Assembly: GCF_000430005.1 (NCBI RefSeq)
Contig: NZ_KE387018.1
Span: 44,412 to 108,411 of the forward strand
Reading direction: 5' to 3'
DNA length: 64,000 nt
Source of the DNA: Desulfovibrio cuneatus DSM 11391
GTDB taxonomy: Bacteria > Desulfobacterota > Desulfovibrionia > Desulfovibrionales > Desulfovibrionaceae
Part shown: in pieces, positions 19,880-37,849 of the stretch
Position numbering within the stretch: the first letter of the stretch is position 1
How the letters are laid out: each line of letters begins with the position of its first letter
Position numbers and translations under genes: made by a program
Notes under the pieces: generated by a model
What the model saw: only the letters and a program-made list of their open reading frames with translations
Told to the model about the DNA's origin: nothing
The model's database searches: none

Positions 19880-20490
19880 TTAGATTATTATATTGATACT
19901 TTCTTGTAGTGGTATTTATATCGGCTTGCGTTGGAGTTACTTAACCCGCAGTTTCTTTTTTTGTGAAAACGTATATAGTTTTCATCTCAATAATCTGCAT
20001 GCAGTTACAATAATATCATTGTCTGTTAGCGTTAAACAAGAGTTCTTTTTGTTTTTGTAAAAAATGATTCTATTACACTAAATTAATGTAGAAAATAAAC
20101 GCATGCGCAAGATTCACATAAGTAAAGCATAGAGTTATATTCCAAGACTATTTGGATGTGCATTAAGCTAGGGAAGCAGAAAGGATGTACTGGAAGCATC
20201 TAAAAAAACGAGTTATGATTATTTGTACGTAGTAGTAGACTTGATCTGACAGTCGGCTCCGTTTTGCTGGTACCTCTGTCTGATTAGTTAAGCTGTCCGA
20301 CTTTTTCCTTCCAGAGAGATTTTCCATCAAGAAGAGTTTGCATTGGGGTTTCCTGTGCCTGCGGACCCCGGCTTTTTGGGGCTGGTCACCGCCCAAAGTT
20401 TTTTCGGGTTGCCGGAGTTGGGGTAGTAGATTCATTACAAGAACGGTGAAAACAGAATGAATGCGACACGCCGCCGCCATAATAACAATG
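19880..20490. other. AT-rich region between chemoreceptor and tailocin locus
   Basis: About 600 bp with no supported gene. The left part is strongly AT-rich and must hold the chemoreceptor promoter (minus strand). The part at 20160-20460 has a higher GC content and one open minus-strand frame of 128 codons with no ribosome site and no recognisable family, perhaps a remnant. Confidence 0.4.
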
Positions 20491-20491
20491 A

Positions 20492-20525
20492 GGGAATGGG
20501 GAACGCTGTACAGTTCCCCATTCCC
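20492..20525. terminator. Terminator at the end of the tailocin operon
   Basis: A 13-bp perfect stem GGGAATGGGGAAC / GTTCCCCATTCCC lies 12 bp beyond the stop codon of the last tail gene. On the minus strand it is followed by TCATTGTTATT. Confidence 0.75.
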
Positions 20526-20536
20526 TTTCTGTTTCT

Positions 20537-21067
20537 CTACGCAGGCCAATTGAGTATTGGCAACTCTGCTAATAGCTCTTCCACACTAGGCACCGGGCGC
20601 TTACCGGAAAATGCCTCGTCCAGAACCTTGAACCCGGCTTCCCACACGGCGTCGCGGGCTGCCACCATATACTGCGCCTCCTTGGCGAAGGTGGGATTTG
20701 CCGAAGTGGCATAGCTGGCGCAGGCCATAGCGCTGTCGTAATTACGGGCGCGGGCGAAAGCATCCAGATGGGCCTGAATGGCTGTGATAAGCGTAGCCCG
20801 CTGCTCAGCTTCTGTGGGGGGAGGGGGCGTTTCCCTCCACCCTTCCGGCAAGGAACCATAGGCGGCAATGGTGAAGGGTGCACCGTTCACATAGCCTTGC
20901 TTGCCTTTATGATCTTCTGCCTGTTCCCAAGCGCTGCCGTTCCAGCAGGGCACATGCCCTTCTGTGAACACGGGCTGCACAGGGGTAGCGTTGTGGGGCA
21001 GCAGGCCGTAATCTTCCACCGGGCCTGCAAAATATCCTTCGGCTGTATATTGATAGGCTATTGCCAT
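20537..21067 (-). CDS. Phage tail fibre assembly (Tfa-like) chaperone
   Basis: The 176-residue product begins MAIAYQYTAEGYFAGP and ends with ARARNYDSAMACASYA...EAQYMVAARDAVWEAGF, the pattern of tail-fibre assembly chaperones (the C-terminal part is Tfa/DUF4376-like). These proteins help trimerise the fibre tip and are specific to it. The ATG at 21067 follows AGGAA by 6 nt. It is the last gene of the tail operon. Its nearest upstream neighbour is not the intact fibre but a decayed second fibre tip that ends 20 bp before it. Confidence 0.75.
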   Translation of the reverse strand: MAIAYQYTAEGYFAGPVEDYGLLPHNATPVQPVFTEGHVPCWNGSAWEQAEDHKGKQGYVNGAPFTIAAYGSLPEGWRETPPPPTEAEQRATLITAIQAHLDAFARARNYDSAMACASYATSANPTFAKEAQYMVAARDAVWEAGFKVLDEAFSGKRPVPSVEELLAELPILNWPA

Positions 21068-21086
21068 AATTATTCCTTTTTTGGTT

Positions 21087-21400
21087 TTACCTGGACAGTC
21101 CCAGATAGACACAAGCCAGTTTGCCGTATGCGCGGGGCTTGGTTGCAGAACCACAACTATAACCATAAGGGGTATTTTAAACATCGATATTGCATACCCC
21201 ATTATCGATCCATTATGGGCTGTATCCCAAGTTCCCATAGACCCAAAGGGGGCAGGGGGGCCCATTAGGACCACCTGGGCGGGCAGCGATGAGCCCCCCG
21301 ATATTGAGATTGTGATCCTGCATTTGATTCCCATGTACGCTTCCAACCCCCAATGCCGTTCCATCCAACTTTGGCGCCATCTACCAACGTGGCTCATGTG
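21087..21400 (-). pseudogene. Decayed second tail-fibre tip
   Basis: Fragments of a tail-fibre C terminus can be read in different minus-strand frames: LDGTALGVGSVHGNQMQDHN and onward near 21380-21245, and SATKPRAYGKLACVYLGLSR followed by a stop at 21087. The last piece aligns with the end of the intact fibre (ENRTRGFGWLGCVYIGGE). At least one shift falls in a run of six C at about 21255. The arrangement fibre tip then Tfa fits a former fibre end, so it is likely a relic of receptor-domain exchange. Confidence 0.6.
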
Positions 21401-21585
21401 GCTGTGGTCGTGGCCTGCCATTCGGCTTCCGTTCTGCACAGTTTTTTGCACTTAAAGGCTGCAGGCAGCCCCAGGCATTCGGAAACACGGCAGGAGCGTT
21501 CATAGTCACCCCCCCTGTAGCAGGCTGAAAGCCGGAGCGTAAGGTGGAATGACGAAAACTATATAATTCACACAGTTCATAGCGG

Positions 21586-21711
21586 TCAAATTCCGGATAG
21601 AGGGATGGCATGTATTACTTCAGTAATTACCAACACAGCGGTAATGATGCCAAGCAGGAAGAAACTTTCCATCAGGCAAAACTTCCGGTGCTTTTTCCCG
21701 ATCTCACCCAT
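21586..21711 (-). CDS. Possible 41-residue membrane peptide
   Basis: A short frame begins MGEIGKKHRKFCLMESFFLL, continues through a single hydrophobic helix of about 20 residues and ends LSGI. The ribosome site is weak (GGGA, 12 or more nt upstream). It lies between the intact fibre and the decayed tip and may be part of the remnant or spurious. Confidence 0.25.
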   Translation of the reverse strand: MGEIGKKHRKFCLMESFFLLGIITAVLVITEVIHAIPLSGI

Positions 21712-21786
21712 GTAACAACATCCCATTGAACTCTTCCGTTGCGCCAATTAAAAAACAACATAAGTCATATTGATACACAGTAGCCT

Positions 21787-22836
21787 TTACTCACCTCCTA
21801 TGTATACGCAGCCAAGCCACCCAAAGCCTCGGGTACGGTTTTCATTTGCTGTGGGCACCTGGTTGGCAGCATTGAACTGTATATTCCAGCCGTTACCATC
21901 AGCTTGTCCGCCCAAGCCGCCTCCGACCATACGAAAAGCCCCAGTATAAGCTGATTGTGAAGAGTTATCCGCCACAAAGTTACCGGTAATATTTCTGATG
22001 GCGTCACCATGCCACTCGCCGACACCCGGCAAATAGGGGCTCCCGGCATCGCGCCCGTAGTCCCCCCGAGTATCCGGAAGCTTAATAATTTTTGTGACTG
22101 CATCCATACCAAAAAAAGGAACCCCGCCAACCCCACCTGCCTGCTTTGACAATTCATTCCAGCGGGTAATACTAATGCACTTCCACTTCCAATAAGGGTT
22201 TTGCAGCGTTACCCATAAATCAGGGTAAGTTGTATCTGCCCGGCTAATTTCCGCCCCGTTGCGCACCGCCCACCCAACAGGTGGTACTTTTTCATAAAAC
22301 GTTCTAAATTCTGTAAGGTATCCGGGCTGAACAAGTGTAATAACACCCCCTGGGTCTACTTCTAAACCACCTCCCCCCCCACTGGCTAAGCGCAGCCAGT
22401 ACGCGGCACCATCTCCCTGAACCGGATTCCTGGCTCCAACTCCGGCAATGTTTTTTCCGGAAGGTTTAAGGGCAATATACAGCTGGTTATCTTCACCAAA
22501 CACAAAGGCTGGCAAATAATACGTTGCATCCCCGCTCCATTTGAATGAACCAAGAACGGCCTGCATCAACCCCTCTTCCACCTTGTCCAAATCGCCATCG
22601 TCCTTCACACCCGGTGTGTAGCGATTGGCAATGAACTGGGCCACCCCAGCCGCCATGTGGGCGGCCTGCCGGTTGGCCCTGTTTTGCACTTCCCGCAGGG
22701 CAATGCCGGGAATGTGTCCCCGCTTGCGCAGGGGGTGGGTTTTGTACTCATCCAGGGGCAGCAAATCCCCCGCGCCTTCCAGCCCTTCCGGGGCAAAAGG
22801 CAGAATTTCGTTCACTGCGTTGTTGTTCAGTGGCAT
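21787..22836 (-). CDS. Phage tail fibre protein with collar-type tip
   Basis: The fibre binds the surface of the target cell. The 349-residue product has an N-terminal baseplate-attachment part (LPFAPEGLEGAGDLLPLDEY, HIPGIALREVQNRANRQAAH), a Gly-rich hinge at about 190-198, and a collar-like C-terminal domain (PPVGWAVRNGAEISRADTTYP, IIKLPDTRGDYGRDAGSP, WHGDAIRNITGNF) ending with a short beta strand. The ATG at 22836 follows AGGAG by 9 nt. A 230-bp gap with a hairpin (22988-23021) separates it from the baseplate gene upstream. It is short for a fibre, so the particle would have stubby fibres. Confidence 0.85.
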   Translation of the reverse strand: MPLNNNAVNEILPFAPEGLEGAGDLLPLDEYKTHPLRKRGHIPGIALREVQNRANRQAAHMAAGVAQFIANRYTPGVKDDGDLDKVEEGLMQAVLGSFKWSGDATYYLPAFVFGEDNQLYIALKPSGKNIAGVGARNPVQGDGAAYWLRLASGGGGGLEVDPGGVITLVQPGYLTEFRTFYEKVPPVGWAVRNGAEISRADTTYPDLWVTLQNPYWKWKCISITRWNELSKQAGGVGGVPFFGMDAVTKIIKLPDTRGDYGRDAGSPYLPGVGEWHGDAIRNITGNFVADNSSQSAYTGAFRMVGGGLGGQADGNGWNIQFNAANQVPTANENRTRGFGWLGCVYIGGE

Positions 22837-22987
22837 GGAGTATTCTCCTGTGGTTAAAGCTGGTGAATGCAGACGCATTGACCAACGCGTTTCAAAATGA
22901 CGATGCTCTCGCTAAAAATTTGAGGAATTGATTGTAATTTTTTAAAAATGCTCAGTTTTTCGTTTGGCAAGGCACGAGCTTTTTTTA

Positions 22988-23021
22988 AAGAGGGGCTGGA
23001 CTCTTCTGTCCTGCCCCTCTT
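22988..23021. other. Intercistronic hairpin upstream of the tail fibre gene
   Basis: The arms AGAGGGGC and GCCCCTCT with an inner GGAC/GTCC form a hairpin in the 229-bp gap before the fibre gene. Only three T follow on the minus strand, so it may attenuate transcription or mark a joint rather than terminate. Confidence 0.4.
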
Positions 23022-23065
23022 CAAAAAAGGCGAGTAACAAAGCGAAACGGAATAAATCAGCATTT

Positions 23066-23746
23066 TTATGCTTGCGGGCGTAGCACACGGGGCCAACGCC
23101 CCCCATTGCCGCTACTATCAGCCCAGCCGGAAAGCGCCGGGGAATTGCAGTTCCAGGCGAACAGCGGCCCGCCATCCGGCGTTACGGCGTACCATTGAAT
23201 ACGCACGCCTTCGGGCTTCAAGGGCACATACTGTTGCAGCAAAAGCTGCTCAAACACCGGGTTCATAATGCGCCCGGCAATGCCCACAATCATGCTCATG
23301 TCCTGGTTATCTTGCAGCACAATCATGCTGCCTGTATCGGCAAAAGCCACTTCCCAGGCTTCGTAAGCACCGGGGGTGGTGCCGTTCCAGGCATTGGCAG
23401 CCACCTTGGCTTTGAGCAAGGTGCGGTACACATCGTCTGGCAGTGTGGTCAGCCCGTTTTCCGCATCGTACTTGCCCTTCCACACGCCTTGCCCCCAGCC
23501 AACGCCTTCTTCATTCCAGCTAAAAAACACCCCTTCCAACGGCGTATGCAGGTAACGGGTGCGGCCCACCCGCACACCCACGGCATCAAGCTGCCTGCCT
23601 GTGGCTGTGTCCAGGTCAAAGGCCGTGCGCAATTCTTCCAGCAAGGCTTCCACTGTGTGCAGGGGAGCCAGCACGGCCTGCACTGTGGCCATAAACCGGG
23701 GGCGCTGCCTGTGCTGGGAAGGGACAAGGTTCAGGTATTCTTCCAT
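23066..23746 (-). CDS. Baseplate protein, DUF2612-like
   Basis: The 226-residue product resembles DUF2612 proteins, which in contractile-tailed phages occupy the place of tail protein I/Mu gp48, linking baseplate wedge and fibre. Recognisable parts are DLDTATGRQLDAVGVRVGRTR and an acidic/aromatic mid-region (GVGWGQGVWKGKY). It starts 3 bp after the gpJ-like gene stop and precedes the fibre gene, the usual order. The last 30 residues are Ser/Gly/Trp-rich. Confidence 0.75.
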   Translation of the reverse strand: MEEYLNLVPSQHRQRPRFMATVQAVLAPLHTVEALLEELRTAFDLDTATGRQLDAVGVRVGRTRYLHTPLEGVFFSWNEEGVGWGQGVWKGKYDAENGLTTLPDDVYRTLLKAKVAANAWNGTTPGAYEAWEVAFADTGSMIVLQDNQDMSMIVGIAGRIMNPVFEQLLLQQYVPLKPEGVRIQWYAVTPDGGPLFAWNCNSPALSGWADSSGNGGRWPRVLRPQA

Positions 23747-23749
23747 GGC

Positions 23750-24922
23750 TTAATATTCCTGAAGGGTTATATCTTCCACTGCACACAGCACCACATGGTT
23801 GAATGGCACCACAAGGCTACCTGTTTGTTGCCCCTGCCCCTTTACCCCCACGCCAAGGTACAGCACGTCAAAGGTTCGCAGGCCGGGTTGCGGTTCCGCC
23901 GTGTTAATAGGAGTATAGAGCTTGGAAAGCAGCACATCGTCGCCAATGCGCAGGCTGTTCAGGTATTCCGCAATGTTGCGGCGCATGGCTTCCCCGGTAA
24001 CGGAAAGGTAACCGGGCAACGGCGTTATGCGAATAGACACGGCAATGGAAAGCACCTGCGGCCGGAAAAACGAAATAATGCAAGGGGTGCCGTGCTTGTC
24101 CCGCGTGTCCACAGCAATGTCGCCAAAGGTGCCGCACCCCGGCCCTTTTTTCAGGGCAATGGTGTTGGCAATGGTTTGGGGCTCGCCCCCTTCCACCACA
24201 AAGGCAATGCTGTGCGGCGGCAGGCCGTTGGCATCTTGCACGCTTGTATCGTTTTCATAGCCCCGGCTGCGGCTTACCCCCGGCAGGCTTGCCACGGCCC
24301 CCTGGGTGCCTTCAAAAATGGAAAGCGAAGGCAAGGCCGTGCTTATGCTTTGGCGCTGGCGCAGGGCCGAATCCTGCTCCACAGGCGCGCCCGGCCGGGC
24401 GGCAATGGGGTTTGTTACGGCCTGCCAACCCCGTGTGGGGGTGGCAATGGTGTTCACTTCCCCTGGGGCGGCGCGCACTTCCCCCATGGTTTCCGCCAGG
24501 GCGTTAACCGTGGCTTCCCCTTGCAAGGGAATGACCACTTCTTCCGGCAGCAGCCAGCGCTGCCCGGCGACATCAGTAACCACCCCGCGCCGGATAACCG
24601 TGCCCGCCTGCCCGATAACCCGCACATCCACCTGGCTTCGGGAAGCGCTGGCGCGGCGTATTCCATTGGTTTTTACCACGCTGGAAAGCCCCACACCCTG
24701 CGCCGTGGCAGGGGAATAGGCGTTGTATACGGAAGCTGCCAGCGTGTAGCAGTCGTATATGCGCAGGGCAAACACCGCGCACAGTGCCCCTTCCTGGGCA
24801 TCTGGCTCCAGGTACACATCCTGCCCGTAAATACCGCGAAAGTCGCTTTTCAGCGCTTCCAGCACCTCCGGGTAACTGGGCACATGCATGCCTGTTGCAT
24901 CAATAAAAGCAGTTGCTGTCAT
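23750..24922 (-). CDS. Baseplate J-like protein
   Basis: The wedge protein that triggers sheath contraction (P2 gpJ, Mu gp47, T4 gp6 family). In 390 residues: the N-terminal YPEVLEALKSDFRGIYGQDVYL, the family segment GVGLSSVVKTNGIRRASASR, and the beta-rich core with GEVNTIATPTRGWQAVTNPIA. The ATG at 24922 follows AAGGGGAAG. It sits between the gp25-like and DUF2612-like genes. Confidence 0.88.
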   Translation of the reverse strand: MTATAFIDATGMHVPSYPEVLEALKSDFRGIYGQDVYLEPDAQEGALCAVFALRIYDCYTLAASVYNAYSPATAQGVGLSSVVKTNGIRRASASRSQVDVRVIGQAGTVIRRGVVTDVAGQRWLLPEEVVIPLQGEATVNALAETMGEVRAAPGEVNTIATPTRGWQAVTNPIAARPGAPVEQDSALRQRQSISTALPSLSIFEGTQGAVASLPGVSRSRGYENDTSVQDANGLPPHSIAFVVEGGEPQTIANTIALKKGPGCGTFGDIAVDTRDKHGTPCIISFFRPQVLSIAVSIRITPLPGYLSVTGEAMRRNIAEYLNSLRIGDDVLLSKLYTPINTAEPQPGLRTFDVLYLGVGVKGQGQQTGSLVVPFNHVVLCAVEDITLQEY

Positions 24923-24954: not shown

Positions 24955-25308
24955 TTACAGTATTTCCTGCACTGTGGCAGGGCCATACACCGTGTTAATG
25001 CACATGGTTATGCTCAGGCCGCGTGTTTCGCCATCCAGCCTGCTTTCGTAGCTGACAATTTCGGTAACGCCCTCTGTTTCCAACACCCGCTGGCGAATGG
25101 CAAAATCGTAACTTTGTGCCGTGTGCTTGCCCAAAATGGCGGGGGAGTAAGGGGTGCCTTCCGTTACATCCAAAAACCATTCTCCCCGTAGTAAACGCAA
25201 ACGGGTAAGCACTGCCTGGGCCACTGCTTCCGGCACGTTATGCAGGTAGTCTGCATTGCCATGCCCAAGCACCATGTCGCCGTTGGTGTCCAGCTTTCTG
25301 TATTTCAT
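24955..25308 (-). CDS. Baseplate wedge protein, gpW/gp25-like
   Basis: The 117-residue product has the size and signature of gp25-like wedge proteins that start sheath assembly: a beta-rich N terminus (YRKLDTNGDMVLGHGNADYL), then VPEAVAQAVLTRLRLLRGEW, and late strands with LSITMCINT. It lies directly upstream of the J-like gene. Confidence 0.78.
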   Translation of the reverse strand: MKYRKLDTNGDMVLGHGNADYLHNVPEAVAQAVLTRLRLLRGEWFLDVTEGTPYSPAILGKHTAQSYDFAIRQRVLETEGVTEIVSYESRLDGETRGLSITMCINTVYGPATVQEIL

Positions 25309-25322: not shown

Positions 25323-26111
25323 TTATCCCGCAATGGGTGGGCCGCAGGGGCCAGTGCCGCCAGCATCCCGGTGCGGGTGGTTTATTTGGCTTACGCCCCC
25401 GGCAATCTGGTCGCCTGTGCTGCGGTGGCTGCCTGTTTGGTTGATGTCCCCTGTAAACGTGGTAGCGGCCTTGCTACCGTTTTTCCCTGTAATGCTAATG
25501 CTGTCGGCCTGAATGTTCAGCTTGGGGCATACCAGATTGATTTCCTTGTCAGCCTGGGCGGTAACGGTGCCATCAGGCGTTTGCAGCACCACACAGGCCG
25601 GGTTTTGCGAACGTATGGTATAGTCTGGCATCATGGTAATGTGCGCCTTGCCATCGTCGGTGCGCAGTTGCACATTATCTGTATCCACTGCCGGGTCCAG
25701 CACCCGTGGCTGGGAACGCGGGCCTACAATGGCGAACCCGTCGGAAAGGTCGTGCATGCGTTCATCTGGCCTGCTGCCAATGCCACCCCCCTGCCACCAG
25801 CCATCAATACAGCGGCTGGCAAACACCACCAGGCACTCGTCATCTTTCTTCACCGGGTGTGTCAGGCTGAAGCCCCCGCCACAGGGGAACACCACAGGCA
25901 CATCCACCAGCAGAGGCAAATTCACTTCCTGCACCTTTCCCGTTTCTTGCTGTACCCACCCTTTTATGGCAGGCTGCACAGAAACCGTCATGGCGGCAGG
26001 GTTAAAGCTATTCACAAGGCCTGGCAGAGCTGTCCACATTTCCAGTTGCCTGCCGTCCAGGGCAACGCGCATGGCTTCCACCGCGTCATGGGTTCGTTCT
26101 CTTCTGTCCAT
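25323..26111 (-). CDS. Baseplate spike protein, Gp138/gpV-like
   Basis: The membrane-piercing tip at the end of the tail tube. The 262-residue product has the Gp138 N-terminal OB-fold region (MWTALPGLVNSFNPAAMTVS, VDVPVVFPCGGGFSLTHPV, GDECLV-type motif as KKDDECLVVFASRCIDGWWQ) followed by a beta-helical part and a C terminus rich in His/Asp/Gly (NHPHRDAGGTGPCGPP), which may bind metal as in other spike apices. GGAG precedes the ATG at 26111. Confidence 0.85.
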   Translation of the reverse strand: MDRRERTHDAVEAMRVALDGRQLEMWTALPGLVNSFNPAAMTVSVQPAIKGWVQQETGKVQEVNLPLLVDVPVVFPCGGGFSLTHPVKKDDECLVVFASRCIDGWWQGGGIGSRPDERMHDLSDGFAIVGPRSQPRVLDPAVDTDNVQLRTDDGKAHITMMPDYTIRSQNPACVVLQTPDGTVTAQADKEINLVCPKLNIQADSISITGKNGSKAATTFTGDINQTGSHRSTGDQIAGGVSQINHPHRDAGGTGPCGPPIAG

Positions 26112-26174: not shown

Positions 26175-27128
26175 TTACGCTACATCCAAAGGAACCTGAC
26201 TTGTGCCATCAAGAGCCACACACACCAGCTTTGCGAACCAGTCGTTGCCGCGTGTATCGCCAACGAACGTCACTTTCAAAATGCGGTACAAACCGTCGGC
26301 ACTTATGGTAGGAGGGCGTTTGGCACTTTCCTTAACCTCTGTTTTTGCCCCTTCCTTGACCTCTGTTTTTGCCCCTTGCACGCTGCGGTTATCCAGCTTT
26401 ATTCGCCCATTTACCCGCAGGCGGGGGTTCAGCAGGCAGTTCACGTTCAGCCCTTCATTTGTCCATGTGGGGGCACCAACAAGGCCTGTTTCATGGGTTA
26501 ACACTACGGCTTCTTCAGGCAGATAGCCTGTTTTGGGCACCATGGTCAGCGCCCCATCCTGCACAGACCAACTACACCGGGTATTCACCGCCTCGTCGCG
26601 CAGCACCTTTTTGGCGCTGGCAAAAAACACCTTGCCCCTTGGCAGGCTTGTGGGGTCAAATTCCGGTAAATAGCCTGTGTTTACCCCTTTTTCTGCAAAA
26701 TACTGTGCGCACAGCTTTACCCTGTCTGCCGGGGTGCTGCCCGCAGCCAGGGTGGAGTTGACCACAGCCCAGTTGTAGGCTTTGTCGCCATCAGCCGCAG
26801 TAATTGCCGTAAAGGTATCTGTGCCATTTTCCCGGCCCCGCTGTACCTTGCTGATGGTGCCATCAAAAATTGTGGTGCAATTGCCCTTATACCCGGCAGA
26901 AAGGACAACCCTGCCAAATTCTTGCTGAATACGGTTGCTGGTGCCTTCCGCCAAGTTGTACACCGTTATGTTGGCTTTATTGGGCGTTTCGGTGTCTGTT
27001 TTGGTAATGGAGAATGTTATACGCATTTCCCCCAGTTCCAGCCCTTTGCCGTCCACACCTGCCACTTGCAGCAAGCAGGCCCGCAACCACTGCGCCCCTG
27101 AATCATGCGGTGAATTTTCCTGGCTCAT
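26175..27128 (-). CDS. Baseplate hub protein (gp27/gpD-like)
   Basis: The 317-residue product has the beginning of phage hub proteins (LRACLLQVAG...MRITFSITKTDTETPNKANI, typical of the first hub domain) and VVLSAGYKGNCTTIFDGTIS. It would form the trimeric hub between tube and spike. Residues about 250-268 hold an in-frame 8-residue tandem repeat (GAKTEVKE twice) from a 24-bp DNA repeat at about 26338-26385. AAAGGAAC precedes the ATG. Confidence 0.75.
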   Translation of the reverse strand: MSQENSPHDSGAQWLRACLLQVAGVDGKGLELGEMRITFSITKTDTETPNKANITVYNLAEGTSNRIQQEFGRVVLSAGYKGNCTTIFDGTISKVQRGRENGTDTFTAITAADGDKAYNWAVVNSTLAAGSTPADRVKLCAQYFAEKGVNTGYLPEFDPTSLPRGKVFFASAKKVLRDEAVNTRCSWSVQDGALTMVPKTGYLPEEAVVLTHETGLVGAPTWTNEGLNVNCLLNPRLRVNGRIKLDNRSVQGAKTEVKEGAKTEVKESAKRPPTISADGLYRILKVTFVGDTRGNDWFAKLVCVALDGTSQVPLDVA

Positions 27129-27467: not shown

Positions 27468-27472
27468 GCTGC

Positions 27473-29718: not shown

Positions 29719-29743
29719 AGTATTCATCCTTTCAGGGTGCAGG

Positions 29744-30369: not shown

Positions 30370-30473
30370 GTGATTCTCCCAAAAAGAACAGGATGAGAAT
30401 GTGCCTGTGGATAGCGAATGCCTACCCACATGGCCTGATTCCACGTTGCTTCAACACAAACACCAAAGAAACT

Positions 30474-31021: not shown

Positions 31022-32497
31022 CTATCGGTTCACGTCAATCTGCACATCCACAAAGTGCACTGCGCCTGCCAGCTTTACCGCCACTTGAATGGGCGGGGCC
31101 TTGCGCTGCTCACGTTCACTTTGGGGTTGCTCATCAATGGGCTGGGAGTAAATATACCAACCCTTGGGCAGGTATTCACCGCGCTCAAGCTGCCCGAAGC
31201 CATCGGCATTCCACACGCCAGGGGCAATCAGGCCGTTGTTCACGCCTTCTTCCAGCACTTTGCTGATGGTGGTGACAATCTGATTAATGCCAGCTTCCGT
31301 TTGCGGAATTTTGGTTTTGGATTGATACAGCAGGTTGTAGCACTCTGTTTGAATGGCGTTTTGCAGCCAGTCTGTGCCATGCACCTCATCAAAAAAGGCC
31401 CCGTTAGCCATAACGCCTTCTTGCAAAATGGCTGTTTCGTTATCGTATTTCACGAACACGTTGCAGTTTTTGCGGGCCAGAACAGCCGCCTGCGACTCTT
31501 TCAGGCCTTCCGCCACAACACCAGGTTCTTGCTTGAACTTCAGGGTAATGGTGCTGCGGTTGGCATTAAAGTTCACGGTAAAAGCCCGGCCCACGGCAGA
31601 ACACACCGCATATTCATTGCGGCTGTACTGGGTAAAGCTGCGCTGGCGGGCAAGGGCCTTGAAGCGGGAAGCCAGGTCGTTTTCCACAGTGCTGGCAAGT
31701 ACCTGGCTGTTGGTAATGGTCGTCAGGTAAATGCGGCTTTTGGCGCACGCTTCAATAAAGCCGGAAACAGCCACATGCTCGTCGTCACTCAGGGTATCGG
31801 CAAAAGTCAGGCCGTACCAATCGCCATAGGTATCTGCCAGGTCGGTTGCGCACTCCAGCGGCGTTTCCCCTGCCATACCCGGCACAAGGGGTTGGGCCAA
31901 TTCGCTGGTAAGAGCCATGCGCCTTGAAAGGTCTGTGCCAGTGCCCTGGGGCACGGCAAAACCAATTTCTGCCCCGGCCCCCACGCTGCTTGAACGCAGC
32001 ACAAAGTGGTCATTTTCCCACAGGCAGGTGGCCCCTTTGCTTGCCAGGGCAGCATTCACCACGCCTGCCACACCATTCATGTTGGTTTGCCCTGTAAAAT
32101 CCAGGGTATTCACACTCACGGTCTGGGTGTTCACAACCATGCTGAAGCTGCCGTTGGTCACCGTATTCCAGTTGCTGGCGTCCAGGTCTGCATCTGCCAC
32201 CAGGCCACCTTTCAGGTATGCCGGGGAAGAATTTTTCACCCAACGGGCAATACCCAGAATATACGGGCGCGGAGTTTGGCTGAAAAAGAGCTGGGCTGCC
32301 TTGTATTCCGGCGCATCCACGCCAAAATCTTCCACAATACCGGTAATGCCGGTGTAATAGCGAATACGCTCGGCAGGGTCGATAACATCGCTGCTGCCAG
32401 CAATGCACAACACGCCAAAGTTGCGCCGGGGCACAGCCTTGGGTTGCAGGTTTACAGAAACGCGCACAAGGCGATCTACAGATAACGCTGTTGCCAT
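31022..32497 (-). CDS. Contractile tail sheath protein (DUF3383)
   Basis: The 491-residue product matches DUF3383 sheath proteins: LSVDRLVRVSVNLQPKAVP, RRNFGVLCIAGSSDVIDPAE, YKAAQLFFSQTPRPYILGIA. A sheath shows the tail is contractile (myovirus or R-type). The ATG at 32497 follows AAAGGAG by 8 nt; the frame upstream to 32551 is not needed. First of the high-expression sheath-tube pair. Confidence 0.92.
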   Translation of the reverse strand: MATALSVDRLVRVSVNLQPKAVPRRNFGVLCIAGSSDVIDPAERIRYYTGITGIVEDFGVDAPEYKAAQLFFSQTPRPYILGIARWVKNSSPAYLKGGLVADADLDASNWNTVTNGSFSMVVNTQTVSVNTLDFTGQTNMNGVAGVVNAALASKGATCLWENDHFVLRSSSVGAGAEIGFAVPQGTGTDLSRRMALTSELAQPLVPGMAGETPLECATDLADTYGDWYGLTFADTLSDDEHVAVSGFIEACAKSRIYLTTITNSQVLASTVENDLASRFKALARQRSFTQYSRNEYAVCSAVGRAFTVNFNANRSTITLKFKQEPGVVAEGLKESQAAVLARKNCNVFVKYDNETAILQEGVMANGAFFDEVHGTDWLQNAIQTECYNLLYQSKTKIPQTEAGINQIVTTISKVLEEGVNNGLIAPGVWNADGFGQLERGEYLPKGWYIYSQPIDEQPQSEREQRKAPPIQVAVKLAGAVHFVDVQIDVNR

Positions 32498-32588
32498 ACT
32501 GATTTCTCCTTTAAAAAAACGCTGCATAAACACTCTGTTTGCAGCTTGCACAACACATGTGGTGCCCAGCCTTCCTCAAAAAACGACC

Positions 32589-33212
32589 TTACCCCTGCAC
32601 CTGCAACGCGCATTTGCGCCTGCACGCCGCACAACCCATGCCCACGCCTGATACCGCGGGACTATCGGTAACAACGCCACCAACCACGCCCACCAGGTTA
32701 CGCACTGCCACCTGCCGGGCTGTTGCCTGCCTGAATACCAGGGGCACATCCACACGCACCCGCCAGCCAGCACCCAACTCTTCCTGCACAGGTTCCAATG
32801 TGCCTGCACTGACAAAGGCAAGGCCAAGGGGGCGTAAAAGGGCACGGTTTTGGGGAACATACAGGCTGTCGCGCAATTGCTGGGCAGTGTCTGTTGCCAG
32901 CGGCCCGTACATGGAAATGAGAACTTGCACTTCATCATGCAGCACAAGGCAGCCCAGCCCCTGGCCTTCTCCTGTGTGGCGCAGTTCCGGTTGCTGGTAC
33001 AGGGTGCGTGCCGTTACCCCAAATTGACACCATGTGGTGTTGGCATCGACTTCACCTGTTGCCTCTACCCCCTGTTGCCAGCGGTGAATAATGCTGCTTT
33101 CCCCCAGGCCTGCTGTTCCGGCTATAAGCGCACGCAGGGCTTGTGCCAGTGCCTGTTCCGGCAACGCTTGGGTAAGGGATAAAAATCCGCCTGTTGCACT
33201 TGTTGTTGCCAT
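32589..33212 (-). CDS. Tail terminator / neck protein (gp12-like, LIC_12616 family)
   Basis: The product (207 residues from 33212) resembles phage neck terminator proteins that cap the tube: FLSLTQALPEQALAQALRAL, CLVLHDEVQVLISMYG, and VDVPLVFRQATARQVAVRNL. The start is unsure: ATG codons at 33302, 33227 and 33212 are in frame, none with an ideal ribosome site. It is the first tail gene after the 32-bp element and terminator at 33321-33360. In a complete phage, head-tail joining genes would sit just upstream; here there is a lysis operon instead. Confidence 0.72.
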   Translation of the reverse strand: MATTSATGGFLSLTQALPEQALAQALRALIAGTAGLGESSIIHRWQQGVEATGEVDANTTWCQFGVTARTLYQQPELRHTGEGQGLGCLVLHDEVQVLISMYGPLATDTAQQLRDSLYVPQNRALLRPLGLAFVSAGTLEPVQEELGAGWRVRVDVPLVFRQATARQVAVRNLVGVVGGVVTDSPAVSGVGMGCAACRRKCALQVQG

Positions 33213-33320
33213 TTTCGTTACCAGCATTCCCTTTTTTGCCTTGCCCTTTTCTACCCACGCACCGCAGGGCTCATTCCCCTTGCGGTGTTCCCTCAACCTC
33301 ATGGCAAGAACCTACCCGAA

Positions 33321-33352
33321 GAGGATAAAAAAAATCACTCTGAACTATTTCA
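33321..33352 (-). promoter_or_regulatory. Putative late control element, copy A
   Basis: A 32-bp sequence repeated at 35772-35803 with 30 identical bases. On the minus strand it contains the dyad TGAA-ATAG-TTCA, then GTGAT, a T-run and TATCCT (possible -10), and precedes the tail operon by about 100 bp. In this copy the dyad is enlarged into a terminator hairpin. I infer a promoter controlled by the Mor-like activator. Confidence 0.5.
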
Positions 33353-33360
33353 GAGTGATT
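33326..33360 (-). terminator. Terminator of the lysis operon
   Basis: On the minus strand AATCACTCTGAA, loop ATAG, and TTCAGAGTGATT make a perfect 12-bp stem followed by T6 and more. It ends the holin-to-DUF2730 operon 132 bp after its last stop codon. Confidence 0.8.
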
Positions 33361-33491
33361 GCTTTATCCTGTAATATATAGAAAAAATGGCCAGGCCCAT
33401 GCCGAAACATGTACCTGGCCCAAACGCTTTTTTATAAGCAACAACCACCAGCCAACACGATTGTCACTCCACTATTTGCAAGAAAAAGTTC

Positions 33492-33932
33492 CTACCTCTT
33501 GCGGTTGCCGTATTCTGCCACATGTGTTTCCAGCAAAATACCCACGTTGGCATTCAGCGCATCCACCTTGGCATCAAGGGTAGCAACAGAACCATCAATA
33601 TGTTTACCCATGGTACTGATGCTGCCTTGCAGCGCCGTAAGGGCGTTATTCAGGCGGTTTATGTCTTCCGCCTTGGGCAACACATTTACAGAAAGTTCAA
33701 GCACATCAAGCTGTGCGGTAATTCGGTGTTGTGCCTGCTGCAAGGCTGCCACCCTGGCGGCCTCTCTTTCGCGCTGCACATCGCGGGCAGCCCGGCAAGC
33801 AGCACATTCTTCCTGGCGCACAAACATTTTGGCAAAGCTCCACCACAACCATGCCACAGCCCCCAAGGCGACAGGTGCCAACAAGGAAACCCACCCCGCC
33901 ACCGCCATATGCCAGTCAGGGTCTTGTAACAT
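33492..33932 (-). CDS. DUF2730-like membrane protein with coiled coil
   Basis: The 146-residue product has an N-terminal membrane helix (WVSLLAPVALGAVAWLWWSF), a basic Arg/Ala-rich stretch with two Cys (ECAACRAARD), and a coiled coil with LPKAEDINRLNNALTALQGSI, the signature of DUF2730 proteins of Mu-like phages, whose role is unknown. Its start overlaps the i-spanin stop by 1 bp (TAATG). Being in the lysis operon suggests a role in lysis or envelope. Confidence 0.75.
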   Translation of the reverse strand: MLQDPDWHMAVAGWVSLLAPVALGAVAWLWWSFAKMFVRQEECAACRAARDVQREREAARVAALQQAQHRITAQLDVLELSVNVLPKAEDINRLNNALTALQGSISTMGKHIDGSVATLDAKVDALNANVGILLETHVAEYGNRKR

Positions 33933-34579
33933 TATTCACGCCACCCTTTTGCCAGTTCTCTCCAGGCATGTTCTTTCGCTTCCAAGCGCTGGCAACGACT
34001 TCCGTAATAGGCCATATATTCCAGCACATCTTCTTCTGTAACCATGGCACGTTGCCCTGCCCCCCTGGAGGACTCCCCTCCCCGTGGGGCTCCACTTCCT
34101 GCCGGGTTTACCCCCGGAATCCCGGTTCCAGCGGAAGCACCTGCGGTTCCGGTTCCAGCAACACTCCCGGCACTACCGGGGGCGGGCAGGGCACGGGGGG
34201 CGGAAGTAACTGCCCCTGTGAAACCGTTCCACAACCGCACAAACTCAGCGCTAAAAATATGCACACTACCAGCCGTTGCATGTTTAATTTCCCTCCGTAA
34301 TGTTTGTGCCTGGCTTTCCAGGGCGTTATTTTTCACACTCAAGGCATGGGCTGTCTGTTCCGCCGCCATAACCTCCTGCTGGTAGCGGGCAAGGGTATTT
34401 GCCAGGGCCGCGCCATATGCTTCGGCTGCGGCCCGCCGTTCTTCTTCCTGCTGCACCTGCACAAGCCGCAAGGCAGCAAGCCCTTCCGCTTCTGCCTTGC
34501 CATAGCCAAGCTGGTATGCCCCAAGGCACACGGCCCCCAAGCAAAGCAACACCAGCCCCCATTTTATTGTATTACTCAC
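33932..34579 (-). CDS. Inner-membrane spanin (Rz-like)
   Basis: The i-spanin joins with the o-spanin to fuse inner and outer membranes in the last step of lysis. The 215-residue product has an N-terminal anchor (MSNTIKWGLVLLCLGAVCLG), a long periplasmic coiled coil (about 30-100, rich in Ala, Glu, Gln), then a Gly/Ala/Ser-rich stretch (about 125-175) that lies over the o-spanin gene in another frame and is probably shaped by it, and a charged helical tail. It is downstream of the endolysin. Confidence 0.8.
   Translation of the reverse strand: MSNTIKWGLVLLCLGAVCLGAYQLGYGKAEAEGLAALRLVQVQQEEERRAAAEAYGAALANTLARYQQEVMAAEQTAHALSVKNNALESQAQTLRREIKHATAGSVHIFSAEFVRLWNGFTGAVTSAPRALPAPGSAGSVAGTGTAGASAGTGIPGVNPAGSGAPRGGESSRGAGQRAMVTEEDVLEYMAYYGSRCQRLEAKEHAWRELAKGWRE
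34108..34281 (-). CDS. Outer-membrane spanin lipoprotein (Rz1-like), nested in the Rz gene
   Basis: A 57-residue frame inside the i-spanin gene begins MQRLVVCIFLALSLCGCGTV: a lipoprotein signal with lipobox L-C-G-Cys. The mature part is Pro-rich (LLPPPVPCPPPVVPG...), as in lambda Rz1. GGAGG lies about 10 nt before the ATG. Length, lipobox, Pro content and wholly nested position are all diagnostic of Rz1. It is too short for most gene finders. Confidence 0.85.
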   Translation of the reverse strand: MQRLVVCIFLALSLCGCGTVSQGQLLPPPVPCPPPVVPGVLLEPEPQVLPLEPGFRG

Positions 34580-34673
34580 ACAGCACCCCCTGTGCCCATC
34601 TGTTTAAGCGCATGCCACAATATTCCAATTGACCGTTATTAGGGAGCGCTGCCCCCAGCCCCTGCAAGGGGAA

Positions 34674-35381
34674 TCATTCACACTCGCCTTGCGGCCACCC
34701 TGCTTTTGCATACACAGGCACAAGGCTGAAAATCCGTTTAGGGTAGGCCCTGTTTTCCTTAATAGCAGCGGCGCTGCGCCCTGCATTCACCAGTTCCACC
34801 TGCCCCCAGTACTGGTTTTTGTCTTTGCCCAACCGCGGCGCCATGGCCCTGTCTTTTATCACCCAGCCAAGGCCCCCGTTATAGGCGGAAAGCACAAACG
34901 CCCAGCGGTGGGAACACGCACTTTGCTCGTTAACAGCAGCCGGAGCATTACCCGGCAACACTATTTTTTTCCACAGCCATTTGTCATACCCGCACATGGC
35001 CCGTATGGCCCACCCAGGGTTAAAAGGAGCAGGAGCAACCCCAGCTTCCTCCTCTCCTAAATGGGTAAGGGCAGGCACCACTTGCGGCAACCACCGCGCC
35101 GTAGCGGGCATAAACTGGGCAAGACCCTGTGCCCCAACAGGGGAAACAGCCCCTGCCTGCCAGGCCGATTCCGTGTGTATTTGTGCTGCCAGCAGTGCCA
35201 CAGGGGCACCCAGGCCAAACTCTGCCCGCGCTGCACGAATAAGTGTTGCCTTGTGCGCCAAAGCCCTATGCGGCACGGTGCCTGGGCCAGCGGAGGCACC
35301 AGCAGCAACACTTACCCACAGCCCACACACCAGCACAGCAGCCGTGCAGGTAAGCCACAAAGGCCAATCATGCCCCCTCAT
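34674..35381 (-). CDS. Phage endolysin, lytic transglycosylase (SLT family)
   Basis: Cleaves the glycan strands of peptidoglycan at lysis. The 235-residue product has an N-terminal hydrophobic signal or signal-anchor (WLTCTAAVLVCGLWVSVAAG) and an SLT domain: AAQIHTESAWQAGAVSPVGA (catalytic Glu in HTES), GLAQFMPATARW, AFVLSAYNGGLGWV. The start at 35381 overlaps the holin stop by 1 bp. The signal anchor suggests export independent of the holin (SAR-type), an inference. Confidence 0.88.
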   Translation of the reverse strand: MRGHDWPLWLTCTAAVLVCGLWVSVAAGASAGPGTVPHRALAHKATLIRAARAEFGLGAPVALLAAQIHTESAWQAGAVSPVGAQGLAQFMPATARWLPQVVPALTHLGEEEAGVAPAPFNPGWAIRAMCGYDKWLWKKIVLPGNAPAAVNEQSACSHRWAFVLSAYNGGLGWVIKDRAMAPRLGKDKNQYWGQVELVNAGRSAAAIKENRAYPKRIFSLVPVYAKAGWPQGECE

Positions 35382-35737
35382 TACAGCCCCAGGCTCACAG
35401 CCAAGGCCCCTGCACAAAACACCAGGGCACACCCCAGCACACAGGCACAAAACACTCCCTTGTAGCCCGCTGCAACGGGGAAGTCGGCCCCATCATGGTT
35501 GTCTGCATCCGGGGTGCAACGCCAATCATCTGCCAGGTACCGGGCCGGGTTGGCGTGGGGGACCAAAGCCACCCACACAAACAGCAACACAGCCCCGCCT
35601 AGCAACGGCAAAAGTAGCTTGTACACAAGCACAGGCAATTGCTGTGGCCCAGCCAATGCCAAAAGTACGAACAGCCCCAACGCTAAAGCGAGGCACACAA
35701 GCGGTTGCCACCGGGAAGAAAGAAATGGGTTCTGCAT
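35381..35737 (-). CDS. Putative holin
   Basis: The 118-residue product has three hydrophobic segments (about 12-30, 38-60, 95-115) with a short charged loop, fitting a class I-like holin that times lysis. No family is recognised by sequence; the call rests on size, topology and position directly before the endolysin (1-bp overlap). AGGAGG lies 9 nt before the ATG, and control-element copy B 35 bp upstream. Confidence 0.65.
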   Translation of the reverse strand: MQNPFLSSRWQPLVCLALALGLFVLLALAGPQQLPVLVYKLLLPLLGGAVLLFVWVALVPHANPARYLADDWRCTPDADNHDGADFPVAAGYKGVFCACVLGCALVFCAGALAVSLGL

Positions 35738-35771
35738 ACAAAAATCCTCCTTTTGTATTGTAGTACGCCAG

Positions 35772-35803: not shown

Positions 35804-35858
35804 ACCAATCCACGCAGACTCAGCAAAGGGTGCACTGTACTCCTGCATGTTCATTCAC

Positions 35859-36221
35859 CTAACGTGCATGGGCAGCAATGTGCCGTCCTTTTGCAGGCTT
35901 ACGCAAACAATAACTGGCCAAGTAATACACATACCGCTCGGTAACACCACACAGTTGGGCAATTTTCCGTTTGCTCAACCCCTGTTGCAACATGTCCACA
36001 ATTTGCTCTTTCTTCACCCCACCACTAGGAACAGTAATATACTCACCAGGGTAGCTTGCACACAGCGCTTCCATGCCCTGCACCCCCACGGCCCTGGCAA
36101 TGTCATGCGCCATACAAGCCTGTTCTGGAATGTATATGGGAACGCCCCCAAAGGTATTGCATAACGCACCCGCCAAATGTTCCCCCATAATCTCTTGCAA
36201 TGCATGCATTGAAACCCACAT
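35859..36221 (-). CDS. Mor/C-like transcription activator
   Basis: Mor activates middle and C activates late transcription in phage Mu. The 120-residue product has an N-terminal dimerisation part (MHALQEIMGEHLAGALCNTF), the family beta-strand segment GGVPIYIPE, and a helix-turn-helix (VKKEQIVDMLQQGLSKRKIA, then CGVTERYVYYL). The ATG at 36221 has GAGG 5 nt upstream. It lies just ahead of the first copy of the 32-bp repeat, so it probably turns on both the lysis and tail operons, the role PrtN plays for R-pyocins. Confidence 0.82.
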   Translation of the reverse strand: MWVSMHALQEIMGEHLAGALCNTFGGVPIYIPEQACMAHDIARAVGVQGMEALCASYPGEYITVPSGGVKKEQIVDMLQQGLSKRKIAQLCGVTERYVYYLASYCLRKPAKGRHIAAHAR

Positions 36222-36360
36222 AGCCACCTCGCTTTTCGCATTACCGCGCTGCACCGTGCTGGCAAAAACAGCGTCACTGTCCCGTGCCTGTGCCTGCCTT
36301 ACCTCTTCACAACTTCACTTGCCAGGCCACTGCCAACCGAATAACAAACACAGTGCCACT

Positions 36361-36678
36361 TCACGTACTCCCTTTTTCTTGCACGGCGAAAAACTCTGCC
36401 TGCCTGTCTGGCACCTGGCTCACAGGCAAAGCGCTTAATGGTTTCCACGGTTCCGGCACCAACGCCACCCGCACACGCTTCAAACGCGCACTATTTGCCA
36501 GGGTGGGATCAATGCCCTGGGCCATATCTTCACAACTAAAGCCACGTAGCTTGCGCCAGCAGTCTTCGCAGCGGTAATTAGTGGTGGGGGCACCGCAGGT
36601 GGTACACCGCCTTCTTCTTTTTGCCTTTACCTCGGGTAGGTTCTGCAACTCCCCGTTGTACCTGTTCTGCTCTTCCAT
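36361..36678 (-). CDS. Small zinc-ribbon phage protein of unknown function
   Basis: First gene on the minus strand after the operator region. The product (105 residues if it starts at 36678, where AGGA precedes the ATG; GTG at 36771 and ATG at 36732 are alternatives) has four Cys in CTTCGAPTTNYRCEDC, a probable zinc ribbon, between a basic patch KAKRRRR and a Pro-rich tail. It could bind nucleic acid. No named family is recognised. Confidence 0.55.
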   Translation of the reverse strand: MEEQNRYNGELQNLPEVKAKRRRRCTTCGAPTTNYRCEDCWRKLRGFSCEDMAQGIDPTLANSARLKRVRVALVPEPWKPLSALPVSQVPDRQAEFFAVQEKGST

Positions 36679-36931
36679 ACGTTCCTGTGTTGCAAACGCC
36701 CCTGCAACGCGGGATTTACAAAATGCTGCCATGTGTTCACAAACAAATTCCCCTTCCAACAAAGGTTGCACTTTCTTTTATATTTCCGGGCACACACCCT
36801 TCCGTGCGTTATGCTCAATGCCAACCAACACCTGTGTGACAACGAAACACGCCCACATTCCGGCAAACATGCGCTTTACACTTCCCTACATGCCCACGCA
36901 TGTGCGTTGAGAAGTTATGGTTGCAACACCA

Positions 36932-36960
36932 TTGACCCTTTGGGCCATGCCAGTTACAGT
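36932..36960 (+). promoter_or_regulatory. Putative promoter of the CI-like repressor
   Basis: TTGACC at 36932-36937 and TACAGT at 36955-36960, spacing 17, read towards the repressor. The leader to the repressor ATG would be about 165 nt and contains the palindromic operator. Confidence 0.45.
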
Positions 36961-36996
36961 AAAAAACAAAACAGAAAGTTGCATCCTCATGCACCC

Positions 36997-37027
36997 TGTA
37001 TATGCAATATTTATTGCATATAGTCAA
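36997..37027 (-). promoter_or_regulatory. Operator palindrome over a divergent promoter
   Basis: ATATGCAAT-ATTT-ATTGCATAT (37000-37021) is a perfect 9+9 inverted repeat. On the minus strand it fills the space between TTGACT (-35 at 37022-37027) and TATACA (possible -10 at 36997-37002; spacing of 19 is long). A repressor bound here would block leftward transcription into the zinc-ribbon and Mor-like genes. GTTGCAAC motifs at about 36919 and 37061 may be further sites. Confidence 0.55.
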
Positions 37028-37132
37028 CAAAAAGTTTATATAACGATTTCAAGCACATCCAAAGTTGCAACAAGCAGTACTTACTGCCACAAGAAAGTAT
37101 TTATAACCCACAGTAACAATTGCAGGTTTGCC

Positions 37133-37849
37133 ATGAACAACTCCACCCCAGAAAAAATCCTTGAGCGTTTGATGCTTGCAACCAATGCCCGAAGCGAAGC
37201 AGCCCTGGCTGCGGCCATAGGCATTAGTCATCAGGCGGTTTACAACGCGCGCAACAAAGGGTCCGTGCCTCCGGCCTGGGTATTTGAGGTGGCAAAGCGG
37301 TTTGCCGTTTCTACAGACTGGCTGTTCTTTGGCACTGGGGAAATGCAACCAGAGGTGTACTCTCCAATACACCCTGCTCCCATTGTTCCGGCCCAGTCAG
37401 TCAACACTCTGGCTGTTATCAATTGCCACGATTGTGAAATTACCCTGGTGCCCATGGTGGAGGCGGTGCTTTCAGCCGGGGGGGGGAGCTTTGAAACAGG
37501 CGGAGTAACAGACAGGCGCTATGCCTTTAGAAGCGACTTTTTGCAGCGCAAGGGGCAAGCCAGCCAGATGGTGCTTATGCGTGTTGCAGGAGACAGCATG
37601 GAGCCAGAAATTAAGGATAGCGATGTGGTGCTTATTGACCAAAGCAACAAGCGCCTGCTGCCCAATGGTATTTATGCGGTTGCTGTGGAAGACATGGTGT
37701 ACCTGAAACGCGTAAATGCCCTGCCGGGCAAAATTATTTTGACAAGTTACAATGAACTGTATGCCCCCATTGAAGTAGAAACAAACGGCGACCTGGAAGA
37801 TTCTGTACGTATTATTGGCCGTGTGGTGTGGTGGTGCCGGGAAGCATAA
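37133..37849 (+). CDS. CI-like repressor with S24 self-cleaving domain
   Basis: Keeps the phage-tail genes silent until DNA damage. The 238-residue product has an N-terminal helix-turn-helix of the CI type (AALAAAIGISHQAVYNARNK, then VPPAWVFEVAKRFAVSTDWL), a linker, an Ala-Gly cleavage site (VLSAGGGSF, about 122), and a LexA-like peptidase with the Ser in AGDSMEP and Lys in MVYLKRV. All parts for RecA-stimulated self-cleavage are present. It is transcribed away from the rest of the locus; the ATG at 37133 has AGG 8 nt upstream. Confidence 0.9.
   Translation: MNNSTPEKILERLMLATNARSEAALAAAIGISHQAVYNARNKGSVPPAWVFEVAKRFAVSTDWLFFGTGEMQPEVYSPIHPAPIVPAQSVNTLAVINCHDCEITLVPMVEAVLSAGGGSFETGGVTDRRYAFRSDFLQRKGQASQMVLMRVAGDSMEPEIKDSDVVLIDQSNKRLLPNGIYAVAVEDMVYLKRVNALPGKIILTSYNELYAPIEVETNGDLEDSVRIIGRVVWWCREA

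Follow-up and report, generated by a model that had tools for sequence, protein, structure and literature searches.

Positions 20490–37849 of the window, the whole 64,000-nucleotide stretch of Desulfovibrio cuneatus DSM 11391 DNA that was analysed, probably encode an SOS-inducible R-type (contractile) tailocin that derives from a Mu-like transposable prophage with a tail of the E217/Pam3/KPP10 type. This 17 kb stretch of phage-type genes lies on the minus strand, with the repressor gene on the plus strand, and comprises 22 open frames encoding a tail set (terminator, DUF3383 sheath, tube, chaperone, tape measure, baseplate, fibre and Tfa), a lysis cassette, a Mor-like activator and an S24 repressor. 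Sequence comparison established the gene content, the Mu-like gene order, the lack of the head block between its usual neighbours and a protease leader at the resulting junction. The openness of the 22 frames is a result of how the frames were chosen, and better evidence comes from the gene lengths, which agreed with those of kin. Family matches confirmed the tail, lysis, Mor-like and S24 genes in the order given in the original prediction, with corrections such as that of the Tfa start.

All of the tail genes were on the minus strand. The tail (neck) terminator (32589–33302; PF23961) showed homology from near 33212, and its upstream in-frame ATG at 33302 occupies the position of the protease start codon in relatives. 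The contractile sheath (31022–32551, likely start 32497) matched nearly the whole DUF3383 model (E 3.6e-138) and did not match PF04984 (Phage_sheath_1), which had a single match in the genome, on contig C17; no further DUF3383 sheath was found in the genome. R-pyocins are P2-derived R-type tailocins, headless contractile tails accompanied by lysis genes. Identity of the locus with this type was rejected because the sheath family differs (DUF3383, not PF04984), and the predicted separate sheath lineage was upheld. The following genes encode the tail tube (30554–31006; KPP10_Orf10, PF11681), the tail assembly chaperone (29914–30444; PF21822), a tape measure of 581 aa (28057–29802; phrog_2276), a Dit-like baseplate protein (27473–28060; PF21821), a Pam3 gp18-like baseplate plug (27162–27671; PF22479, with the match beginning at residue 74 of the listed frame), an E217 gp41-like baseplate hub (26175–27128; PF22759/phrog_196), a spike-type protein (25323–26111; PF18352), a gp25-like wedge (24955–25308; phrog_120), a Baseplate_J wedge (23750–24922; Baseplate_J match) and a DUF2612-like structural protein (23066–23746; phrog_587). 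Between the last of these and the fibre gene lies a partly palindromic copy of a genome-wide interspersed repeat (22943–23068). The tail fibre (21787–22878) gave a weak Collar match, and about 95 of its N-terminal residues were 67% identical to the fibre of family member G144. A second, frame-broken fibre tip (21068–21786) precedes the Tfa-like fibre assembly protein, whose listed frame (20537–21451) is over-long (likely start 21067, 176 aa) and had no Pfam match. Directly beyond Tfa is a long terminator-like hairpin (20490–20527, plus strand) that reads on both strands. Sheath, tube, chaperone, tape measure, baseplate and fibre genes, as needed for a contractile tail, were all present. The tape measure had been called short, predicting a short tail; this was not borne out, as 581 aa falls within the 532–667 aa of nine kin with head matches, a range that omits G247 and L080 (554 and 569 aa), while G144, L087 and L184 gave no usable length. 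The tape measures of the headless loci L137, L180 and L181 were 563 aa each.

The S24/CI-type repressor is listed as a plus-strand frame at 36917–37849, has a likely start at 37133, and matched S24 and CI families. It contains Ala-Gly (LSAGGGSF), Ser (GDSMEP) and Lys (YLKRV), which we take to be the residues of self-cleaving repressors. In the control region between the repressor and a zinc-ribbon-like gene (36679–37132), a perfect 11-bp inverted repeat (36999–37009 and 37012–37022) is a candidate operator. The small zinc-ribbon-like protein (36361–36771, likely start 36678, 105 aa) gave a weak match under the cut-off and has a homologue in a Mu-like prophage on contig C41. It is followed, on the same minus strand, by the Mor-like late transcription activator (35859–36254; phrog_836/PF08765), a holin (35381–35737; Holin_2-3, PF13272), an SLT-type endolysin (34674–35450; family match), an Rz spanin (33932–34579; phrog_1403) with an Rz1-like frame nested in it (34108–34281), and a DUF2730 protein (33492–33932; PF10805). 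Upstream of the holin, the minus-strand segment 35764–35803, with the core TTGAAATAGTTCAG, is probably an activator site; over 40 nt it matches a part of the junction at 87.5% identity. The locus carries its own lysis cassette together with a repressor of the damage-responsive type, as judged from sequence.

No capsid, portal or terminase gene was found in the locus when its gene frames were family-scanned and the other listed frames were read, and family scans detected no packaging, integration or transposition gene at 20490–37849. Transposase A/B and the head and packaging genes of a functional Mu-like phage were both missing. Ten neighbouring frames were scanned: eight matched chemotaxis, binding-protein, metabolic or transport families, two had no match, and none was a phage gene, in agreement with the predicted lack of such genes in the locus and at its edges. 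The general family scans of the locus brought up no AAA+ ATPase or toxin cargo family of the kind that marks Afp/PVC-like extracellular contractile injection systems. A near-DNA search of phage records returned no match.

Descent from a Mu-like phage is indicated by the order Mor, holin/endolysin/Rz, DUF2730, and by the shared leader dyads. In G144, whose sheath is 72% identical, Mor, holin, endolysin and DUF2730 are followed by 9.7 kb of head genes and then by the same tail. The interval between DUF2730 and the terminator in G144 contains a Mu gp27-like small terminase, large terminase, portal, MuF, DUF2213, cement and capsid genes, with a 100-aa frame between the DUF2730 homologue and the terminase genes. 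The lysis operon had been proposed to stand in place of the head genes; this was rejected because Mu-like relatives such as G144 carry lysis genes at the same place. Head matches were found upstream of the sheath in 53 of the 54 viral loci that had at least 2.5 kb there (L087, with only a portal piece, is counted among them, and 10 loci were left unjudged for lack of room). A DUF3383-region match was found in 94 E. coli genomes, and the one inspected has heads. A tape-measure scan of viral contigs gave four stretches, none from a relative. The genus offered 14 further genomes, several of them no more than 65–86% complete; 3 had a DUF3383 match, at 24–30% identity where tblastn located it, and the locus itself was found in no sister strain or species among these genomes or in the viral locus searches. 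The flanking malic-enzyme-like gene had relatives at just 44–50% identity, in 8 of the 14, too distant to reveal an empty site in the genus.

The missing head block belongs in the gap from DUF2730 (at 33492) to the terminator gene (from 33212 or 33302), which is now filled by a junction of 279 nt (33213–33491, minus strand) with two hairpins. The second hairpin (33333–33360), followed by a T-run, TAGGTT and CCATG, matches the head protease leader of relatives, so that the junction keeps this dyad-plus-leader element as far as the start codon. An element of this type precedes the protease gene in 6 of the 11 relatives examined; in the other five the gene had no dyad and T-run upstream. The L079 leader (dyad, T8, TAGGTT and CCATG) was 90.6% identical to the junction over 32 nt (E 3e-5), while in G144, G040, G062, G061 and L082 the protease is preceded by a dyad of different sequence, a T-run and CATGCG. 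The lysis and protease leaders share a dyad core in G144, G040 and G062, and in the window the lysis leader and the junction likewise share one; a strict dyad search missed the lysis-side dyad of this kind in both the window and G061. In the genome, the junction dyad occurs at a single place at up to 2 mismatches. Since the protease leader is kept at the junction and its core recurs before the lysis operon, a late promoter probably survived ahead of the tail genes. If the dyads act as terminators and nothing more, the tail genes might not be expressed. A consensus scan gave 13 promoter-like sites (10.8 expected) and 27 terminator-like sites (26.3 expected); with counts so near expectation, the long hairpins alone stand out. 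Hairpins and the repeat copy are both present in the late region. The head appears to have been lost in two blocks, terminases–portal–MuF and then protease–capsid–connectors, or by an equivalent rearrangement that retained the leader element, so that the tail operon probably has a switch of its own.

On DNA damage, RecA would trigger self-cleavage of the S24 repressor, and the freed promoter would drive the zinc-ribbon-like gene and the Mor-like activator. From the sequence they share, the dyads 5' of the holin and of the terminator gene are the likely binding sites through which the activator would turn on the lysis and tail operons. Headless contractile tails would then assemble, and holin, endolysin and spanins would lyse the cell. 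By analogy with known tailocins, the released particles would attach to kin via the fibre and depolarise them upon contraction.

The main rival to the tailocin reading is a young defective prophage. On this less probable view, deletions removed the early and head regions of a Mu-like prophage, and what is left is decaying with no function under selection, whether or not tails are still made. The broken fibre tip and the lack of a close sheath in the 14 other genus genomes fit such decay, as do relatives that lost heads by this route. In G118, capsid and connectors are kept but terminases and portal are gone; a transposase-B frame adjoins what remains of the capsid, and the tape measure gave a partial match. 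In G247, only a MuF piece lies upstream of the sheath, there is no terminator match and most head genes are gone. In L087, one frame holds both portal and terminator pieces. G118 and G247, close relatives in the family, evidently lost their head genes by decay. However, these decayed relatives show fused, cut or missing genes, whereas in the window the genes flanking the head deletion are whole and all of the tail, lysis and control genes seen are open. The probable retention of a late promoter at the junction further argues for selected tail expression. Headless DUF3383 loci also occur elsewhere: a survey gave 8 loci without a head match, half of which were read gene by gene (the exceptions being L183, L185, L227 and L251), and 17 loci were left unjudged for lack of room. 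Gene-by-gene reading identified L184 as the fourth headless locus beside L137, L180 and L181 (IMG/VR); all four are presumably isolates, going by the style of their names. L137, L180 and L181 kept 16 of 16 compared genes with dN/dS of 0.01–0.40 and are under purifying selection, a result that concerns this separate group and not the locus in the window.

It is improbable that the tails serve another prophage of the genome that provides heads. The rest of the draft, which is 96% complete, yielded none of the head types that go with this tail (Major_capside, Phage_portal_3 and the G144 capsid and portal), in searches run without a control genome and with L031 (G144) and phage Magia as the only head reference sets, which other head types would escape. 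Terminases are present in two further prophages. One, on C41, is Mu-like, with a transposase, a terminase, a portal-like frame, and a repressor, Rz and Rz1 that are 59, 69 and 81% identical to those in the window, respectively; the other, on C4, has a terminase and an integrase-like frame read by eye. There is also a weak MuF match, under the cut-off, on C2. Against a partner stand the lack of a second DUF3383 sheath in the genome, an in-frame TGA in the MuF stretch of C41, and the lack of tblastn matches to G144 or Magia head proteins in the C41, C4 and C2 regions. C41 was accordingly dropped as a head donor. An assembly artefact, in which the head block of a complete prophage was dropped from a contig of the 76-contig draft, is about equally improbable: the locus is interior to a contig of 185,728 bases, the junction dyad has no second place in the genome at up to 2 mismatches, and no other contig yielded the parental head types.

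If the tailocin reading is true, the recognised sources of R-type tailocins would grow by a sheath lineage and by a phage type that is transposable and Mor-controlled. The junction suggests a route by which a phage loses its head yet retains regulated tail production, and the junction and lysis dyads yield a testable prediction of binding sites. More tentatively, with chances close to even, the locus may belong to an unnamed tailocin class with E217/Pam3-type (DUF3383) tails and at least two origins. It would have arisen here by two-block excision of the head module of a transposable phage that spared the late promoter and placed the tail operon under the regulation that the lost head operon once had, with the Mor-like activator as dedicated switch of a weapon domesticated in Desulfovibrionaceae. 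Nitratidesulfovibrio vulgaris is placed in the Desulfovibrio family. For this species, the available part of one paper mentions tail-like particles without giving genes, and for D. piger the same part reports that genomic evidence of tailocins was lacking (PMC12724379). No pairing of tailocins with DUF3383 or with N. vulgaris was found in the literature searched, which excluded most subscription papers, and no DUF3383 or Mor-controlled tailocin was named in the titles and abstract beginnings among the matches listed.

Among known systems, the Mu-like prophages with E217/Pam3-type heads and tails (G144 and the IMG/VR loci L079, L081 and L082) have the same tail gene order, and G144 additionally has Mor, holin, endolysin and DUF2730 as in the locus. 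L079, G144 and L082 have a dyad leader before the protease, as at the junction, but all four possess the head block that the locus lacks. L137, L180, L181 and L184 resemble the locus in having an S24-type repressor, lysis genes, terminator and DUF3383 tail with no head match; unlike it, they have a phrog_1212 small frame or a Q-like antiterminator instead of a Mor-like gene, and an endolysin of a different family (phrog_7). Enterocoliticin of Yersinia enterocolitica 29930 is a contractile tailocin whose tail genes were compared with phage Mu by its authors, with particles and inhibitory activity reported, whereas the present locus is known from genes alone; the host is another, and the available part of the paper names neither a DUF3383 sheath nor Mor-type control (PMC13030884). 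BceTMilo (PMC5411513) and the Dickeya tailocin (PMC10719855), as described in the available parts of these papers, are P2-derived headless contractile tails with lysis genes, as in the locus, and in BceTMilo the break falls between tail and head genes. Their tails are of the P2 type, whereas the locus combines a DUF3383 sheath with a Dit-like protein, a plug and an E217-type hub.

The locus at 20490-37849 is best accounted for as an R-type tailocin of transposable-phage descent, SOS-type and Mor-switched, a reading that we consider moderately probable. The window sits within a 185,728-base contig of a 3.36-Mb draft genome of 76 contigs (96% complete). The original prediction for this locus was borne out closely, with its genes confirmed by family matches and its 22 open frames in line with relatives in length. 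From right to left on the - strand, it encodes a small zinc-ribbon-like protein, a Mor-like activator, holin, SLT endolysin, Rz (with an Rz1-like frame nested inside) and DUF2730, followed by the tail genes (terminator, DUF3383 sheath, tube, chaperone and tape measure), the baseplate genes (Dit-like, plug, hub, spike, gp25-like wedge and J-like wedge) and, leftmost, a DUF2612-like protein, the fibre and the fibre assembly protein Tfa. An S24 repressor is divergent to the remaining genes; upstream of it, at 36999-37022, is a perfect 11-bp inverted repeat with a 2-nt spacer, a candidate operator. The left neighbours encode a chemotaxis receptor and a phosphonate-type binding protein, and the right neighbours a dehydrogenase, a malic-enzyme-like protein, an aldehyde ferredoxin oxidoreductase and a TRAP transporter. 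As had been claimed, the frames scanned matched no head, packaging, integrase or transposase family.

DUF3383 matches were present in 25 of 288 genomes of the family (own genome included), and 40 stretches on 27 contigs around them were compared with the window proteins, a short G059 contig being excluded. The family is presumably Desulfovibrionaceae, since contig C66 of its member G230 is identical throughout to a contig from Pseudodesulfovibrio pelocollis. In the relative G144, which has a full head and tail set, the control and lysis side matched the window in Mor (43% identity), holin (42%), endolysin (48%) and DUF2730 (26%), and the tail side in terminator (41%), sheath (72%), tube (62%) and then the baseplate genes. 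DUF2730 and terminator are separated by 9.7 kb in G144, where the small terminase (Mu gp27-like) and large terminase, portal and MuF are encoded together with a DUF2213 protein, an E217/Pam3-type cement protein, the major capsid and DUF4054. The DUF2213 protein is assigned as head protease from the way its counterpart in phage Magia is annotated. The gene order and head block of G144 point to a Mu-like phage with an E217/Pam3-type head and tail as the parent of the window locus, which has no such block between these genes. In a second Mu-like prophage of the window's own genome, on contig C41, transposase genes occupy the stretch from a related repressor to the zinc-ribbon-like gene, an early region that the window locus also lacks.

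The parental head was sought elsewhere in the genome, and neither capsid nor portal was found by sequence or family search; the capsid and portal searches gave no match in any control genome, but both models match G144. Large-terminase matches were found on contigs C4 and C41, each within another prophage. On C41 the MuF stretch has an in-frame TGA, and C2 has a weak MuF match. The C41 prophage also carries related lysis genes, its contig ends within its head genes, and its stretch gave no match to the head references (G144 and Magia proteins). A third prophage (C4:140000-167150) contains a terminase and tail-like frames; close to the end of the contig, a further frame looks integrase-like by eye.

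The gap from DUF2730 to terminator is 279 nt (33213-33491) and contains two hairpins (z -4.67). The second reads AATCACTCTGAA-ATAG-TTCAGAGTGATT within a T run, then TAGGTT and CCATG. A 40-nt piece of this junction is repeated at 87.5% 26 nt upstream of holin. Protease leaders were compared in 11 relatives with a protease match (a twelfth, G247, had none), and in 6 of the 11 a dyad and T-run stood immediately before the protease gene, reaching its start codon. The leader of the IMG/VR locus L079 has the same core TGAAATAGTTCA, TAGGTT and CCATG, and is 90.6% identical to the junction over 32 nt; those of G144, G040, G062, G061 and L082 have dyads differing from the window's, with CATGCG. In L086 the dyad lacks a T-run, and no clear dyad was seen before the protease in L081, L083, L085 and G245. 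By eye, the lysis-side dyad core resembles the protease-side core in G144, G040 and G062. A strict dyad search found no such lysis-side dyad in G061 and missed the weaker one of the window, which direct sequence comparison shows. Phage Mu has late promoters ahead of its lysis genes and of protease gene I that respond to the Mor/C family, and the simplest reading of the leader dyads is as putative activator sites. At 33302, an ATG in the terminator's reading frame takes the place of the lost protease start. The head would thus have been lost as two blocks flanking the dyad-leader element, or by an equivalent rearrangement, because one plain deletion would not have left this element in place.

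The main rival, a young defective prophage, is possible, though we hold it less probable. Its chief support comes from family relatives, judged where the sheath was >50% identical to the window's. G144, G245, G040, G062 (C16) and G061 matched most head references, G112 had connector matches on a contig ending at that point, and G230 had no room for head genes. G118 retains capsid and connectors, its tape measure is partial, and transposase frames adjoin what is left of the capsid; terminase and portal matches were not found in comparison with the head references. In G247, a MuF piece is the sole head remnant upstream of the sheath, and there is no terminator match. Both are damaged Mu-like prophages, so head loss with visible damage is not rare in the family.

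A short tail had been predicted from a short tape measure, which did not hold: its 581 aa fall within the 532-667 aa of nine head-bearing relatives, so tail length should be phage-like. The stretch separating the fibre gene from Tfa holds a second fibre tip, now split over several frames; short parts of it match the G082 fibre region at 48-82%. Fibre-tip copies flank Tfa on the opposite strand in G040 (locus L038, 7306-7563 and 9759-10001), which suggests a Mu-like invertible fibre switch in that prophage. A partly palindromic interspersed repeat of ~120 bp has one copy before the fibre gene (22943-23068). With 40 of 323 candidates scored, the genome gave at least 43 matches, of which at least 40 exceed 100 nt and are 82-100% identical (100% being the window's own copy); the further copies over 100 nt, at least 39, are 82-88% identical, several inside prophages. 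The repeat could be a MITE-like element.

Headless DUF3383 loci were also sought in IMG/VR. With the window sheath (80 loci kept of 87 qualified), head matches were found in 53 of the 54 loci that have 2.5 kb or more ahead of the sheath, including L087 with a portal piece only; L137 was the single exception. Where there was less room (n=26), 16 had a head match and 10 none. With the L137 sheath (80 kept of 566 qualified), 54 of 62 loci with room had head matches and 8 none, as against 1 and 17 of 18 with less room. Two of these 8, L137 and L184, were read gene by gene and have a repressor, then a small frame or Q-like antiterminator, endolysin, holin, spanin, terminator and tail. L180 and L181 are 77-94% identical to L137 in repressor, small frame, lysis genes, terminator and sheath, and dN/dS among the three was 0.01 to 0.40 (dS 0.18-0.89) in all 16 genes compared, fibre left out. 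If headlessness is inherited in common, it would be kept up by selection in these three. These four loci, presumably isolate-derived, are candidate tailocins of other bacteria; the dN/dS values of the three indicate that DUF3383 tails can persist without heads, evidence that bears on the L137 group and not on the window locus.

Among known systems, R-pyocins are a P2-derived tailocin precedent. BceTMilo is another P2-derived precedent (PMC5411513). Enterocoliticin is a further precedent, and its authors liken its tail genes to phage Mu (PMC13030884).
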